A DNA stretch of 64,000 bases, from the NCBI GenBank assembly GCA_000310025.1, contig FN648539.1:20368-84367 (forward strand). The letters are read 5' to 3'. Under the pieces are notes generated by a model that saw only the letters and a program-made list of their open reading frames with translations, was not told the DNA's origin and did no database searches. Both the position numbers and the translations under genes were made by a program. Source of the stretch: Ectocarpus siliculosus. Lineage: Eukaryota; Sar; Phaeophyceae; Ectocarpales; Ectocarpaceae. Of this stretch, positions 1 to 52,869 are shown one piece after another; positions within the stretch are counted from its first letter, which is position 1; every line of letters begins with the position of its first letter.

Positions 1-3000
1 CGGCTCAGGAATTAGGTGCGACCCATGCGCTGGGAGGGGGGGGTGGCAGAATCTGCGGGTGTCAAACGTAACAAAGTACACAAAACAGAGTCACTCGCTC
101 GCCGGTTACCGCCACCATGGAAAGAGTACTGGCTTTTCAGAATATTCCCCTAACCAAGACAACATCGGAGTTGCACCGTGTGGCAGGCAAGAGGCCGCCT
201 GGATGATATTTTCCAAGAAGGGGAGAGCTCACGAGGAAGCGAGCAATGCATGCCCGCCTTTCCCGTCTGGTGGCTTGGCGGGCAGAGAGAAAAATGGCCC
301 CATGTGTTGGGAGGGTCGAACGAACAAACTATGAAAACAATTCCACGCACACTGGTCGTGTCACCTACATAAGCGTTCTCTCTCTGTGCGGTGGTTGTTG
401 GCGAATCGACCACAAAGACGAGTGTCGGGCACTCTTGCTCATCAGCCAGCTAGCCCGCGGGCGGGTTTCTTGTCGTTGAACTGATGTAGCAGCATCCTTC
501 TGTACCATATACCCGACCTGAGCAGCCTCGAAGCAGAAATCTTCCGGCGGGAGCCGCTCCGTTCTCACCACCCGCCTGTCCCCCCGGGCATCCACCGCCG
601 ACTCGCAGTACCTCGCCACTGTTGCCTCCGTCTCCTTCGACAGCCGGGGTCCGGGGAGCAGGAGCTCCAACGGCCTGATCGGTCGGACCGGAAGCACGAT
701 TGATCGGACAAGAGGGTCGACGGGCTCTGTTTTAACCGTCTGGTTGACCAAAACAACCAAAGAACGGGTGGGTGAGAACGCACAGATAGATAGATAGATC
801 AATGATATATAGAGAGTCACAAACAAGCCTTCAATGCTTTCCCGCGCGCTACCGCTTCCCCAGAAAAAGCGGTCAAGCGTGGGAATGAAGGCGGGAGCGC
901 GACAGACCGCACATCGTCATCGACATCTAACCCGTGTCTAGTTTCCAGTGGAGGGTGATCCGGAAAGGGGGGTCCTGTGAGCTGGCTGCCCAAGTACTGG
1001 ATTTCCACACGCCCGAAGAGGACCCTCGTGGAGACCTGGTCTTGTAGAACAATGCCAAATTTCTGCCGTAGGTGGGCTACAAATTTCTCATTCAAGTGCA
1101 AACAGTGCTTGTGTCGTGCGTCGTTTTCTCCCAGGTATATGACTGTGCAACAAAAGCCAATCACAGTGTTCACACATTTCGCCTGCTTGCGGACCTCCCG
1201 TATAACCCATATCCGTCATAAGCGACAGGAAGAAACATCAACTTTTCCCCTCCCCTCTGTCCCAAAACCAAAACACATGCCCCCCCCCCCCCCCCCCTTC
1301 CCCCGACCGACCTCAGATGTCTCAGCCGAGTGTGCAGCTCCTGACGCTGTCCCGAACCTTCCTCGAACGCATCGTGCACCACCTTCCCGGTCCTCACGTC
1401 CACGGCTATCAGACCCACCCGCACTCTCTCCACTTGCTTCTCCGCTCCACCGCCGCCGCCGTCGTTCAGGGCGATCGAGATGGAGAGCGGCTCCCCTTCG
1501 GTGCTGGCGCCGGGCGAGGCGTCTTCCTCGTACATGGACATGAGCCACTGCTCTGACCTGTCGAGGGGGGTTGATTTACGACTGTTCATGTCAAGCAGCG
1601 GCAGTCGAAACGAACAATCCCGGAGACAACGAAGGAGTCGCCCCGGGTTTGGAATCGTTGTGGAGGTCTGTATGGTCTTGAAAGGAACGAACGCTTCCGA
1701 CTTCCGACGGCCCCCCACGGGCGCGAAAAAATGACAACAAGGCACAACGGTTGGGGTAGTTGATACCGCCGGCAGACAGAGCTGCACTGGATGGGCGAAT
1801 CGCTATCGCGTATTCAAACCGTTTCAAATAAACGAGAGGCCTGCTGAGTCGAGGATTTCGAGAAGCAAGGTGCTTTCAATATCGTCCATGGGTGTAGCCT
1901 GCTTCAAACGGTAGACCCTCCCATCCCAAGAGAGCCGAGGGCGAGCGCTTTGGGCTGGCATTGCATTGCACCAAGCGGGAACCGCCGTGAGGTGCTCAGC
2001 GAGGCACACCAAGGGCGAGCCGCACGTCAAGAGGGGCCGCTAGCGAGGCGGGATTCGGCACTCTTGCTTGCTTTCATGACAGCAGACGACAAGCTTCGGA
2101 TGGCTCGATTACTGTCCGAGCTACTGTACGGCGGAGAGGGGGACCGGGGGCGTCCCCGTTGCTTCCCTGACCCCTTTGGTCATTGATCACGTATGCCCTT
2201 CGAGACAGAGCACTGCCGTTACTACACTGATCTCAAATCTTGATTAGAGACACGGCCAACATCAGGGGACATGTTGACGGTTATGCCCAAACACTTGTAG
2301 AAAGTGATTAACAAGTCTTCTCGCATTTCTCCCTTTGACGGCTATTCACATCGTGTTCACAGTGAAACGAAATTTTCTTAGCTATTCGCTGGTGCACCAA
2401 GCTCGACCATAGTTTTGGTACATGTATCTATTTTCCTAGCCTCTTCCATAAGGGCACCCCTTCTCCCCCCGTCTAAATGACGTTACCCAACTCTATGTCA
2501 GTTAACTCTTGTGCGTGAGACGGGTTAGCTTGTAGATGTCCCCTCCGCCCTCCCCCTGGTTCGCCACACAAACACAAAAGAAAGCCAGAAATTATCACAC
2601 CTTTCGTGATCAAGTTGGGGCAACGGCGCGTCCATATCCGCCTCGCTAGGAGGCTGAGGCTCTCCTGGCTGGTCGCTGTCCTCCGTGGCACCTCCTCCAC
2701 CCCCACCCCCTTTCCCGCCCTTCTTGCCCCAACCTCCTACCCGTCGCCAAGCTCCACCAATCTTCCTGAACGATCCCTGTCCCCCACTTTTCCCTGCATC
2801 GGTGCCACTTCTGCCGCCGGTACCGGTGTTGGAGCCCGAGGATGAAGGCATGAGGGCCTCCACGGCTCCCTCTACCCATGTAGCCTGTGGCCGCGAATGT
2901 CGTGGGATGAAAAAGGGGGAAGGTGAATTTTTCCACCATGCAAACACGACAACAAAACATGCATACAGCCCTGCCTACTTGAGGCAAGTTGAAACCTCGC

Positions 3001-6000
3001 CGAAACAGAGCGGGCTCCGATCACGTCACCGCAACTCAAATCGCAACCGTTAACGTTCCTAGCGGAAGATAACGAACGACAGAGCACGTGGAAAACACTC
3101 GGTAGACAAACGTGTTGTCACTGAGAGAAGAGTGTCTTGCACCGTGCGGATGGAATCAATGCAAAGCCTGAACGCCAACTACAGAACACCGCACAATGCA
3201 CACAAGCTACCCAGGTCACGTTTCAAGAACCCGACCTGTCACAAGCACCGAAACACGCACACGACAACAACCATGGTTGGCGATAAAAAGCCTCTCAAGC
3301 ACAGGAAGGCGACCCGCCACAAGCTTGTAAGCTAACCTCGGGACTGACTCGCCTGGGAGAAGACTGCGGCAAGCTCACGCTTGAAGGTGCCAGACTTCTT
3401 GCCTGTCTCCGTCAAACCGGCAGCCTTTAGCGCAGCGGACTCGGCTTGACGAACGACCCCAACCTAGTGGAACGCCGGTACATATCATGGAGTACGTCAC
3501 AACACGGAGACTCTACCGTAAGGCGGACAAAGGAGGGATGCAAGGTTTCGGGTATGGAACCGCTTGGTAGAAACGCCGCAACAGAAGACAGGGTGCCACG
3601 CCGCAACAAAGTGTTGACTGACCTCCTACGCCCCTTATGCCAAAAGGAGGCTTTGAGCGACAAATACCACCACCGCAGCTTCTGCACTCTGCCGAAATTG
3701 CCACACCAAACGACAAGCGAAATGCGAATGGTACCGTATGCGTGTGACACGATCGAAACACGGTGAGAGAGACAGGACTGACTCGCAGTTGGTTTCTTGC
3801 CTTGTATCCCGCGTCCACGAGCCTTCTGAGGTGTACAGCAAGGCGGAAAGTGGGCACGCTGGCCACCTGGAAGTTGTGGTCCATGTGTGCGTAGATGCGC
3901 AACACCTGCGCGAGAACGCGAAACAAAAAAACGGTCAGGCAGTGTGAGAGGGGGTTGACATGGTGTTAGTGAAATGCTGCTTTAGAGAGCAAAGGTCATT
4001 TTTATGCCTGCAAAAAAAAACGGAACCTTTGTGAAAAGGGAGAAGTGAAAAAGAAATGAAAACACAGCACAGCATCATCTGTAGCAAACAAACACCGCAC
4101 CGGGCGTCGGCGTGGTAGCTCAAGAGCATCATGATCGGTTGCTCGGCAGGACCTACAGTATACTTCTCATACACAAATCACGTTGGGCTCGGCCGACCCA
4201 GACAAAATCAAACGCCTACAACTTACTTTGGCCGCAGCTAGGGCATCGTCGCCGAAGAAGCGATATCTGTAGCCGCACTCCACCAGAAGCAGCACCCCGG
4301 GATGCTTCGCTTTCAGATCGACGACTTGTTGCTCCATGGGCGTCAGCTTCACCCTGGCAGCAGCAGCGGCGGCGGCCTTCCCCTTTCCGCGCGACGAAGA
4401 CGACGTCGCACCTCCTCCTGCCCCTGTTGTCGTACCCAACCCTCCACCCGGAGCACCGTTGTCACCGGTGCTGCTGTTCCCACCGCTACCCGCAGCAGCA
4501 ACGGAAGGGCCGTCGTCGCTGTCGTCGGGCAAGGCAGCCCTCAAGCCCGCCTGAAAATCCTTTCTTCTTCTCGCGTCCTCCTCGAGGTTAAAGCTGTCGG
4601 CGCTGAAAACCGCCGCAGACGACCCTCCTGAGCCTCGCCCGCCGCCAAATACCGCCAAGCGAGATGAGTTGCTGCTGCTGCTGCTGCTGTCATCAGGGTT
4701 ACCTTTGCTTGAACTATCGCCACCACGGGCGCGGCCACGTTCCCCACCTATCTCCTGGATTTCTTCCATGGCGCCATCCAAGGCTGCCGCCCCTCCTTCC
4801 TTACGCAAGGATACACAAGTGTCGCCGCCAGCGGGAGGCGGCTTAGATTGCCCAGGCGGCTTGTTGGCGGGCCGCTCTTGTTTCCCCCCGGCAGGCCGCT
4901 CCTTGTTCTTTCCGAGGCTGCTGCTGGATGTCGGCTTGTTGGATCCTTGCGCACCCGCTCCCGTACGCGGGCGCTTGGGGTTTCGCCCGATCGGCAAGTC
5001 TTCAAAATCCGATCCGTCGTCGTCGTCGCCAATCCCACCGCTCTTGCTGTTGGCATCGGCCTCTGAATCTGAACCGGAAATCTCGATTTCCTGTGCGAAA
5101 GGAAGTCACAGCGCCAAGCGGGCGCGTGCAAAGGGGGGCGGGGGTTGGGGCATCGACAACGTCTTATTGTGTTTGGTGGAGCTGCAGTCTGTTTCGAGAC
5201 AACCACGCTTTGGTAGTACGTGCGTTGGCCACCATTACACCATTAACGATACAGCTATCTGGATAGAAAGGATCACCTAGGTAAGCCTTCAATAGGAGTA
5301 TACAGTATTCCCGAAGAACCCGGATGTGTTCTCGGTTGAAACTCTCCACGAGACAATTGACGTGTGGTCCCCATGAGAACACGAGCAACCCGGTTGGGAA
5401 GGAGAGTTGATAATCCGTTCTTGGTGCAGGCAAGGGCGTGGAGCGTGGAAGGGTTCACGCTTGACGCGCACGGCGCATACCTCGCCAGCACCACTCTGTT
5501 GCGTGTCCCTGCAATCGGCTCGTGTCATGCTCCCCAGCCGAGACCACGGGGCTCGAGGTGCAACAACCCCAGATGGACAACACCACCCAGCACGCGAAAT
5601 AGGTTAATGTACACCTCCACACCAGCTTGGAACGTATGCAGGGCTATTGAACACCGATACAAGCGGTAGTGGGAAGACTGTAGCCGGTCTGCGAGTATCC
5701 CCGAGTGTTTTGGAAATAAACAAATATCTTCGAAAGACAGCGCAAGGCAGCGCGAGAGGTAGATACGACATCGGTGTGCCGTGAGGGGATAAAAGGAGAA
5801 GTGACGCTGAACCCGACAAACAAAACCAACCCATATCTACATCGTACATGACCCGCGTTCCAATACTTGTAACAGTCCTTTACTGAGCCGATGTTACCGG
5901 CACACTCTCTCTGCCACAACTTCATGTACATGGTAGTACCTGGCACTCATGCGTGCAACACGGTAGATGCAGCTTGTTTACTCTCCTTACCTCCCGAGCC

Positions 6001-7134
6001 GCCGTACCACCCACCACTTGATGACCCCCACACATCTCGCACGCTCGCTTTGCGGCTGGATTGTTGAACGTGCATTTGGGGCATTGCCAGTCGGCGCTGC
6101 GCCTAGTATCCCCGCCGGCTGAGGAAGAAGTCGCCTTCTTACGCTTCGCCGCGCTTGTCTCACGATAGCGGCTGCCTCCGGAAGCTGCGTCTCCTGGGCT
6201 GCCTGTCTGGGGACTCGCCTGGCGCTGCGGAAGAAAAACAACACATGCCTAGCTCAGGGAGCTACGCATCCACATTGTAGCCATTTCTGGTGCAAACACT
6301 TCGACTGGCTGTTGTCTTCGACGCTCTAATAGTACCGTTCGTAATTTGTGTCACGAGCCACACGCATGTTTGTCATTTGCGATATGGAATTGTGTCGAGC
6401 CGGAAGCAAACAGTGTATGGCCGAGCTGGCAGTGAATACATACGTGAATGTTATTGCTGTGTGTGGCGGTTGTTTTGGTCGGGGGCCAAGGTTGCGTGTC
6501 ACGTGTCATCGACGACGAACACACCTCAAGCAAGCGTGTTATTAATAGCCCCTTTTGTTGTTGACGACGGATTGCGTGAACTTTTGCTCATCTCAGTTTT
6601 TTTCGTGCAAAATAACAGCAGAGTATTTTGCCACAGTGCATTTTTGCCACAGGCGTATCCATGAAGTATCGCATCATGATACTCTGTACGCAAGTATACC
6701 ATACACAGCAGCACAGCAGTGCTGGTATTCGTTTGGTGGTCCGACGATGAATAAATTACACAACGATTATTGTATTGTAAGGAAAAATAAAGACACACAC
6801 ATAGCCTACATACACTCAGCAGGCTCTGGAACTTGAAAGGGACCGGTGTGAAGCAATCCTATGCATATTTTACTGTTGAAAACATGCTCTCCCCCGCCCC
6901 CTACACCTACTATACATTTCCACACGGTACGCCGGGTGCAATCGAGGGCGGGAGACTAGCCTGCCGCACCACTATTTTCAAAAATGGTGCATGTTGTTGT
7001 TCGTACATTATTCTCTGCATATGTTATTTCACCTTCACTTTCTCCTTCGCCGCCGGTTTTTTCGAGCTACCAGCTGGATCATCATTGGTATCCCCAGGCC
7101 TCTTGAAGTACTTCGAGAGAAACTGCTGAGACAT
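1..7134 (-). CDS. MSH3: DNA mismatch repair protein MSH3 (3' part outside window)
   Basis: MSH3 is the MutS homologue that pairs with MSH2 (MutS-beta) to bind insertion/deletion loops in the nucleus. Exons seen (minus strand): 7134-7033 (donor could be 7039), 6224-5991, 5090-4227, 3905-3801, 3463-3353, 2884-2601, 1557-1312, 674-518. All phases agree. Exon 1 starts [10 protein letters not shown], a PIP box (QxxLxxYF) for PCNA binding, as expected at an MSH3 N-terminus. Exon 2 encodes a RanBP2-type zinc finger (W-x-C-x2-C-x3-N-x6-C-x2-C). Exon 3 is a long acidic/Ser/Gly linker running into MutS domain I, with [10 protein letters not shown] in place of the Phe-x-Glu motif of MSH6, which is diagnostic of MSH3. 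The following exons carry [35 protein letters not shown], the connector domain and LELLLP. The lever, clamp and ATPase domains must lie left of position 1; I found no exon in 1-517. The introns after 3801 and 3353 have GC donors. Identity is secure; exon 1 and 2 membership rests on phase and on the PIP box. Confidence 0.93.
1280..1297. repeat. poly(C) tract in an MSH3 intron
   Basis: Run of 18 C just downstream (minus-strand sense) of the donor of MSH3 exon 1557-1312. Read on the coding strand it is a G-run inside the intron. Confidence 0.9.
1968..2030 (-). repeat. Degraded copy of the poly(C)-tailed short repeat (tentative)
   Basis: The stretch ACCAAGCG...CCGTGAGG.....CGAGGC.CA resembles, at roughly 70% by eye, the internal part of the short repeat at 41225-41431 and 50833-51038 (ACCAAGCGCGAAGCGCCGTG). 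It lies in an MSH3 intron and has no tail. It could be chance similarity. Confidence 0.3.
5991..6224 (-). other. RanBP2-type zinc finger exon of MSH3
   Basis: One 234-nt exon, phase 0 at both ends, with acceptor CCGCAG and donor GAG|GTAAGG. It encodes a Ser/Ala/Lys-rich stretch and then [20 protein letters not shown], continuing CGG. The four cysteines, the Trp and the Asn match the RanBP2 finger consensus. Such fingers bind ubiquitin or single-stranded RNA in other proteins; which applies here cannot be read from the sequence. Confidence 0.85.
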
Positions 7135-50832: not shown

Positions 50833-51038
50833 TAAGCACAAGATGCCGAACACCCTTAGCAGGATGCAGCTCACCCTTCATGCGACTCGCCGAATACCTC
50901 ACGGCGCGTCGCGCTTGGTGATGTGAGAGCCTGGTCCAGTGAGAACCCGGCGTGCTCCGTCCCGGCTTTGTAGGGATGCGAGGTCAATGGTCTAACGACT
51001 ACGGCATGCACGACTATGAGTATCCCCCCCCCCCCCCC
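50833..51038 (+). mobile_element. Short poly(C)-tailed SINE-like element, forward copy
   Basis: About 205 bp from TAAGCACAAGATGCCGAACA to a run of 15 C (51024-51038). The same element is reversed at 41225-41431. Its last 50 bp resemble the 3' end of the neighbouring reverse-transcriptase element. It directly abuts that element at 51039. Confidence 0.8.
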
Positions 51039-52869
51039 TGTAAGCTGCTGAACGATAGGATAGTGGGAGTACTGGAGAAGAAACGTAGCATTAGTGAGGG
51101 CCAGGCAGGTTTCCGACAGAAGAGGGGGTGCGTAGACCACGCATTCACGGTAGGGAGAATCATCCAAGGTAGAAAGAGGGCGGGCAAGCGGACGTACTGC
51201 TTCTTCCTGGACGTGAAAAAGGCATACGATACCGTATGGAGAAATGGGCTGTGGAAACAATTGTCCAAGTACGGGATCAAGGGGAAAATGTGGAGGGTGC
51301 TGAAGAAGATGACAGAGTGTACGAAAAGCGCGGTCATGCTAGACGGAGAACTGTCTAAATTCTTCGACATTGAGCAAGGGGTCCCACAAGGTTGCACGAT
51401 GTCCCCAACATTGTTCCAGGTGTTCATCAACGATCTGTTGGAAGTCGTAGAGGCAGTCCGGAAGGGAGTAAAAGTAGGGGACACGGAAACTTCGGTGTCA
51501 GGAATGCTGTTTGCGGATGACTTTGTTGGTATGTCGGACACCCCTGAGGGACTGCAACTGCAAATTGACGCGGCGAAGAAGTTTGCTGATAAGTGGAGAT
51601 TGTCTGCCAACGTTACGAAGAGTGCCGTCATGGTATGCAACGAGGGCAGGGAGGAACCAGTAGAACATAGATGGAAGTGGGGGATCGAGGAGATTGCAGT
51701 AGTGGACCAGTACACATACCTGGGAGTAGAGATCGCAAAAGATTGCTCGTGGAATGCACACATGTCCAAGGTAGCGGAAAAGGGCAAAGCACGAGCAGGG
51801 AAGCTGCACCCAATACTCGCAAACCGGCACCTTGATACACGCATCAAACTGACGGTTTTGAAGAGCGTAATCGTACCGCCGCTGGAGTACGCCGGAGAAG
51901 TATGGGAAGGAAATAAGAAGGTAGTGAAAGAACTCGAGGCGGCGCAGATGAAAGCAGCGAAAATCATCCTAGGATGCTCCAAGCGCACAAGAAATGCAGC
52001 AGTCAGGGCAGAATTGGGGATCCAATCCCTACGGTCGGGAAGAGACGTAAGGAAGCTGACATGGCAGTACCGCATGTGCGGGATGGGAGAGGAGAGGTTG
52101 CCGAGAATAGTATGGGAGGCGAAGTGGGCAAACAAAAAGAGGGGTAGACAACCCACGGAATGGGTCAAGGTTGTAGAGGACGTATGGAAGGGATTGGACA
52201 TCGACGAAGATGAAACGCTGGAAACGGAGGGTCTACAGGGGTTCAAGAAGAAGATATCTGTTGCTTGTGCCGAGAGAGAAAAACAGAATCTAAGGAAAGA
52301 AACCAAGGATAAGGAGGGTCTAGAAGTGTACGGAATGTTGAAAGAAGGAATAGGGTTCAAGGATTACCTACATGGACCAATGGATGCAGGGACAAAGCTT
52401 AAGGTCAAATTCAGGACCGGGGACATAGGCCTTCGCGAACGTCGACGAAGACATAGGACGGTAGACGACGAAGACGACAAGTTCGAATGCGATTGCGGCT
52501 TCGAATGCGAAGACAGTGTTCATGTAGTCGCGGAATGTCCGTGGTACGAAAAGGAGAGGGAAGTGTACATGACCGAGCTGGGAAGAATACAAGGGACGTA
52601 CAGGGAGATGTTTGAGGCATGGAATAGAGAGGAGAGGACGGTAGCTGTACTGGGGAGTAGAAAGTGGTTTGAAAAAGCGGGAAGTGACATCGGTAGGATA
52701 GACAGACTAGGAAAGACATTTTTGAGCCACCTTTGGCAAAGTAGAAAGCAACGATTGACCATCGGTGATCGGTCCTGTGGGAACAATGCTCCGTCCTCTC
52801 GAGGACGCGTGGTCAATGGTCTAACCGCTAAGGCATGCAAAGCATAAGAGTACGCCCCCCCCCCCCCCC
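51039..52869 (+). mobile_element. Non-LTR retrotransposon, 5'-truncated, intact RT ORF
   Basis: An uninterrupted frame (about 600 codons, stop at 52845-52847) encodes a reverse transcriptase: EGQAGFRQKRGCVDHAF (before palm), LDVKKAYDTVWR (motif A Asp), GVPQGCTMSPTLFQVFINDL (motif B), GMLFADDFVGM (catalytic Asp pair), YTYLGVEI (thumb). The C-terminal part has a Cys/His cluster, CDCGFECEDSVHVVAECPWY. No endonuclease domain precedes the RT, so the copy is 5'-truncated, with its frame fused by chance to the upstream short element. The 3' end carries TCCTCTCGAGGAC, GGTCAATGGTCTAACC, GCATGCAAAGCATAAGAGTA and a 15-C tail (52855-52869). Two more fragments of it are in the coiled-coil gene. Confidence 0.93.

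Follow-up and report, generated by a model that had tools for sequence, protein, structure and literature searches.

Within a 64,000-nucleotide stretch of the genome of the brown alga Ectocarpus siliculosus (contig FN648539.1, here C103, positions 20,368 to 84,367; hereafter the window), a minus-strand gene for MSH3 carries an exon encoding a four-cysteine zinc finger of the RanBP2/NZF family. The finger stands between a predicted PCNA-interacting protein (PIP) box and MutS domain I. The best explanation, to which we give a probability of roughly one half, is that this exon is a genuine MSH3 exon and that the tail formed by the PIP box and the finger would read ubiquitinated PCNA, by analogy with proteins already known to combine the two elements. 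The exon and domain coordinates are collected in Table 1.

Judged by its sequence, the eight-exon gene is an MSH3; its MutS domains I and II are nearest to MSH3 rather than to MSH6 or MutS. When compared with Protein Data Bank (PDB) sequences, the two domains match human MSH3 in two stretches with an E-value of 1.2e-46, versus 5.2e-6 for the best bacterial MutS, and the 24 PDB sequences with E ≤ 0.001 include no MSH6 or MSH2 chain. MutS_I scores 84.9 bits in Pfam, and MutS_II, with exon 8 starting at 674, reaches 30.7 bits where the cut-off is 25. An alternative start of exon 8 at 739 was rejected; it breaks the frame, whereas the start at 674 keeps the frame and lets MutS_II pass. Across exons 1 to 6 and exons 7 and 8, the finger, MutS_I, and MutS_II are the sole Pfam matches above the cut-off, with no SNF2 ATPase core. 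The complete model (7134..518) is open for 701 codons without a stop. All seven introns end in AG, and their donors are GT except in introns 4 and 5; two successive introns thus appear to have GC donors. Exon 1, whose open frame holds a single Met, encodes the motif QQFLSKYF at residues 3-10 (window 7128-7105). This motif has the form Q-x-x-L-x-x-Y-F, which we take to be the PIP consensus, and the PIP box is therefore predicted from sequence. A second phase-0 donor for this exon, AAA/gtgaag, lies 6 nt earlier than AAG/gtgaaa (the slash marks the splice junction). The first-pass annotation of the window had proposed an MSH3 with a PIP box and in-frame junctions, and the human MSH3 match, the motif, and the open model all bear this out.

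The finger exon, which that annotation had placed in phase 0 between the PIP-box and MutS-I exons, was recovered to the exact nucleotide (6224-5991). Its acceptor, ...tttttcttccgcag/CGC, is pyrimidine-rich, its donor is GAG/gtaagg, and the sequence between them is open in frame 0. From the nearest upstream stop, just above position 6248, to the finger, this frame has no ATG, and its sole Met is that of the CEMC motif inside the finger. The finger therefore requires an upstream exon. A separate gene had been named as a competing explanation; a free-standing gene is ruled out because there is no in-frame ATG before the finger. Coding on the plus strand was also ruled out, since stops occur in all three plus-strand frames. 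The finger itself, at MSH3 residues 79-102, scores 31.8 bits against the PF00641 cut-off of 27. The chance that a match over this cut-off would fall by accident in the 1,942 bases between exons 1 and 3 is about 0.0002, an estimate based on 19 such matches (MSH3's included, and a lower bound) in 189.5 Mb and 492 contigs. Exon 2 is very probably part of MSH3 transcripts.

The formula W-x-C-x2-C-x3-N-x6-C-x2-C, presumably the signature spacing of RanBP2/NZF fingers, is complete in the MSH3 finger. Ranking of PDB matches assigns the finger to a kind. Among its 44 matches with E ≤ 10, the top 13 are ubiquitin-type NZFs from five proteins (HOIL-1L, HOIP, NPL4, TAB3, and TAB2). The first RNA-type match, RBM5, appears at rank 14 (0.015), followed by ZRANB2 at rank 17 (0.032), and Nup153 is matched at 0.11. 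Two control fingers from the same genome were ranked in the same way: an RNA-type finger (L014) has ZRANB2 as its top match (3.4e-8), and a Ran-type finger has Nup358 and Nup153 as its top matches. Because the control fingers match their own kinds first, the ranking separates finger kinds.

The residues expected to contact ubiquitin point in the same direction. The MSH3 finger has Thr-Phe after its second Cys and Glu-Met between its third and fourth (CTF...CEMC). According to PMC4386640, NPL4 contacts mono-ubiquitin through T590, F591, and M602, TAB2 E685 contacts the proximal ubiquitin, and NPL4-type patches take mono-ubiquitin without linkage choice. The algal finger thus resembles the NPL4 and TAB2 NZFs in its four-Cys core, in the T-F...M of NPL4, and in having Glu where TAB2 has E685 (PMC4386640), although it belongs to a different host protein and a different pathway. 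T-F...M is present in 2 of 31 four-Cys cores, MSH3's included. These cores (C-x2-C-x10-C-x2-C) were read from the window and 20 fetched stretches, two of which (L017 and L022) have no core, out of 41 RanBP matches in the genome; the set excludes the remaining weak matches. The second T-F...M finger lies in a ubiquitin-protease-like gene (L028, C23:1503000-1508500), where UCH matches reach 23.8 bits in the finger's frame and 15.2 bits in the neighboring frame, both below the cut-off of 23.9. The MSH3 finger lacks the G-N-V-N-W-x-R-R of the ZRANB2-like finger and reads F-N-N-P-A-A-K there; the N-V-N-W-x-R-R pattern comes from one finger (L014), and the MSH3 finger may bind RNA in another mode. 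It also lacks the L-V...S pattern of the genome's Nup-like fingers (L004 and L005). Its sequence thus places the MSH3 finger among the ubiquitin-binding NZFs, of NPL4 type, and it probably binds ubiquitin. The first-pass annotation had suggested a ubiquitin- or RNA-binding module; the first half is supported by the 13 best PDB matches and the intact patch, whereas the second is disfavored by the behavior of the control fingers.

These data suggest a mechanism in which a PIP box and an NPL4-type NZF would act together. Some 70 residues separate the finger from the N-terminal PIP box; both stand on the low-complexity tail that precedes MutS domain I. The PIP box would grip PCNA, while the finger would grip ubiquitin on the same clamp, at the lysine aligned with human K164. 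That lysine is kept in the algal PCNA (C2:1384868-1386092), which reads ...TIACDKDGVNFSVSG... with the lysine in CDKDG, in an alignment whose K164 register we assume. A patch of the NPL4 type would take chains and mono-ubiquitin alike (PMC4386640). We infer a chain of steps in which exon 2 would be spliced in, the finger would bind ubiquitin, the ubiquitin would be that on PCNA, and MutS-beta (MSH2-MSH3) would in consequence be brought to, or retained at, ubiquitinated PCNA. The sites favored would be stalled forks, post-replicative gaps, and template-switch sites, where loops and branched DNA form. The precedent is ZRANB3, which binds polyubiquitinated PCNA through PIP, APIM, and NZF elements (PMC6356670, PMC5481773). 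Whether ubiquitinated PCNA is the target of the MSH3 finger we judge to be about evenly balanced.

Several observations weigh against this reading. The first concerns the fold. The structure model of the finger (built with 17 fingers of the genome) has a mean predicted local distance difference test score of 93-94 at residues 11-30 of 44 and 78.8 overall. The fold searches return a mixture of RanBP-type fingers. Foldseek places the Ran-binding Nup358 finger first (E 0.085) and Nup153 second, with no E-value under 0.08. In VIA-align, the TAB2 NZF (Z 4.5, root-mean-square deviation 1.2 Å, 31 residues) is tied with the MDM2 and Nup153 fingers, and the NPL4 finger reaches Z 3.4. As modeled, the finger fold does not discriminate among functions. 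The patch, moreover, has near-variants elsewhere among the genome's fingers: S-F...M in L019 and T-Y...L in L008. The ubiquitin link itself also has a contrary precedent: in yeast, an excess of Msh2-Msh3 leads to more PCNA K164 modification of SUMO-like appearance, with no ubiquitin detected (PMC10711559). A ubiquitin link to MutS-beta is therefore not established elsewhere.

The reach of the comparison and the far end of the gene add to these points. No second-species MSH3 relative emerged from the prokaryotic and viral collections, the only ones in which relatives were sought, so that this result says nothing on algal conservation. Against viral contigs, the domain-I stretch gave 7 pattern stretches and exon 2 gave 43, with none confirmed, and the alga-human MSH3 alignment gave 37 stretches in prokaryotic contigs and 30 in viral contigs, with none confirmed in either. 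The single MSH3 protein gave 142 stretches in prokaryotic contigs, of which one was confirmed (a Clostridia metagenome-assembled genome, query residues 49-86); it was taken as bacterial MutS and left unused. MSH3 domains III-V were not seen, and the rest of the gene would be expected in C103:12933-20367, which adjoins the window on its left and consists of 7,435 bases of N. A genome-wide profile search for MutS_V gave no match on the contig, which includes this run, and six-frame open reading frames of C103:10368-12932, read by eye, contained nothing recognizable as MSH3. The 17 MutS_V matches in the genome mark five loci, all on contigs other than C103, and no listed RanBP match lies within 240 kb of them on their contigs.

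The last of these points concern exon 2. A model that joins exon 1 directly to exon 3 is likewise phase 0 and open, and the exon 1 donor, gtgaaa, is weak. Because the MSH3 frame survives omission of exon 2, this exon could be a cassette exon. Codon use gives a mixed answer. Exon 2 scores 0.143 in frame, versus an intron mean of -0.20 and maximum of 0.064 over 96 overlapping 234-nt windows, but the finger stretch alone scores -0.18, which is intron-like, and frame 2, with three stops, scores 0.155, above the true frame. In the training set for these scores, exon 8 still had the start that was later rejected. Given the overlapping windows, the low finger score, and a stop-bearing frame that scores as high, the codon test of exon 2 is weak.

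Four other explanations were considered alongside the reading of ubiquitinated PCNA. The finger may bind ubiquitin on a partner other than PCNA, such as H2A/H2B, FANCD2, or MSH2/MSH3 themselves, and so tune the chromatin retention or turnover of MutS-beta. The evidence for the finger's class (the PDB ranking, the T-F...M patch, and the controls) serves this possibility equally well. If the RYBP finger itself does the reading of H2A-ubiquitin, as we assume, it offers a parallel; titles of structure entries indicate that RYBP, which has such a finger, was solved on H2A-ubiquitin nucleosomes. NPL4-type patches also bind mono-ubiquitin with no preference among linkages (PMC4386640). However, a PIP box lies about 70 residues away from the MSH3 finger, and PIP plus NZF is the pairing known from ZRANB3 for ubiquitinated PCNA (PMC6356670). 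We consider a non-PCNA partner rather unlikely. Alternatively, exon 2 may be a rarely used cassette or be skipped, leaving most MSH3 protein without the finger. The open exon 1-exon 3 join, the weak exon 1 donor, and the intron-like codon use of the finger stretch would fit, but the pyrimidine-rich acceptor, the GTAAGG donor, the intact 78-codon frame, and a finger over the Pfam cut-off with so small a chance of accident make this distinctly improbable. It is less probable still that the finger is a drifting or structural remnant, folded yet without a partner. A single genome has been seen, and the sequence on either side of the finger looks low in complexity, yet every position for zinc, Trp, Asn, and the ubiquitin patch is intact, and T-F...M is kept in so few of the fingers read. 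Binding of single-stranded RNA, as by ZRANB2, or of Ran, as by Nup153, which would tie MutS-beta to transcripts, R-loops, or transport, is scarcely likely, since its support consists of the weaker PDB matches to RBM5, ZRANB2, and Nup153 and of near-identical folds headed by the Nup358 and Nup153 fingers, and the finger lacks both residue patterns of those classes.

Comparison with known systems places the algal protein among MSH3 proteins with one added module. It shares with human MSH3 a MutS domain I containing VECGY[RK]YRFFG (52% identity over a 127-column domain I alignment) and a domain II. Human MSH3 also has an N-terminal PIP box. The algal protein differs from the human one in the NZF between the PIP box and domain I, and the 44 PDB matches of the finger include no MSH3 chain, though 1137-residue human chains are present in the database. 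To our knowledge, yeast MSH3 likewise has no NZF at this position. A parallel within the MutS family is MSH6, which carries an extra N-terminal reader module, PWWP in metazoa or Tudor in land plants (PMC13305816, PMC12292046), the Tudor domain being described as a distinctive mark of plant MSH6 (PMC12292046). Those modules, however, read histone marks and are in MSH6, whereas in the alga it is MSH3 that has the extra module, a finger of ubiquitin type. ZRANB3 has the same combination of PIP and NZF in a single chain, but PMC5481773 describes it as an SNF2 ATPase that also contains an APIM motif and an HNH nuclease, while the algal protein has MutS domains. The algal MSH3 may work like the reader of ZRANB3 but is not a ZRANB3. 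We found no report of an MSH3 with a zf-RanBP/NZF or other reader module in the open-licence literature, a scope that excludes most subscription journals and domain-architecture databases, and the architecture may already exist unnoticed in protein databases. Reader modules are thus known for MSH6, and an NZF in MSH3, seen in one genome, appears to be new.

Table 1. Exons of the MSH3 gene and position of its zinc finger, in window coordinates.
Feature	Coordinates	Strand	Description
MSH3 exon 1	7033..7134	-	ATG and PIP motif; donor AAG/gtgaaa; phase 0
MSH3 exon 2	5991..6224	-	234 nt (78 codons), phase 0 at either end; NZF-type zinc finger inside
RanBP2/NZF finger	6021..6092 (C103:26388-26459)	-	Pfam PF00641 match; Thr-Phe...Met patch
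MSH3 exon 3	4227..5090	-	Long linker of acidic/low-complexity sequence, followed by the start of MutS domain I; phase 0
MSH3 exon 4	3801..3905	-	MutS domain I; GC donor (AAG/gcaaga)
MSH3 exon 5	3353..3463	-	MutS domain I; GC donor (CAG/gcgagt)
MSH3 exon 6	2601..2884	-	End of MutS domain I and Gly-rich insert
MSH3 exon 7	1312..1557	-	MutS domain II, first part
MSH3 exon 8	518..674	-	MutS domain II; N run adjoins the window beyond

Other loci of the genome provide context. MSH6, on C2, was recognized by a PDB MSH6 match of 4.2e-22. Its apparent first exon (L026:1892-2320, minus strand, within C2:2057000-2063000) contains a PIP motif, GQGTLFSFF, and a Tudor-like stretch that matches PDB 7de9 at 5.9e-10 and Pfam PF21743 at 23.5 bits, below the cut-off of 27.2. 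With PIP plus Tudor-like in MSH6 and PIP plus NZF in MSH3, each protein seems to pair a PIP motif with a different reader-like module. HIRAN is a domain of HLTF and Rad5; two HIRAN matches over the cut-off occur in the genome, one of them within a long frame. A second PCNA-like gene (L025, C16:4453291-4453653) is one 355-aa open frame, whereas the PCNA gene elsewhere has introns; it may be viral in origin. The EsV-1-7 repeat (PF19114) has at least 150 matches, with all 150 that were scored lying over the cut-off, among 880 candidates, and none in 14 prokaryote controls; this family is described as expanded in brown algae (PMC7457493), which agrees with the stramenopile setting that the first-pass annotation had assumed. 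Within the window, a 634-aa open frame on the plus strand (50943-52844) has an RVT_1 domain (105 bits) and is probably a retroelement. Pfam was run on 6 of the 85 window open reading frames of at least 130 aa and on four stretches from other loci.

What steers MutS-beta to particular sites is a question of current interest, since repeat expansion is driven by its processing of loops and hairpins, an activity that also bears on recombination and fork repair. We suggest, tentatively, that in brown algae MSH6, with its PIP and Tudor-like elements, would read chromatin, while MSH3, with PIP and NZF, would read ubiquitinated PCNA with two hands, and loop repair would be tied to the damage-tolerance state of the clamp. 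The PIP and NZF tail of MSH3 is a small, portable construct for testing. If the proposal is true, an MSH3 whose single tail combines a PIP box with an NZF of mono-ubiquitin type would amount to a natural experiment on the coupling of mismatch repair to PCNA ubiquitination.

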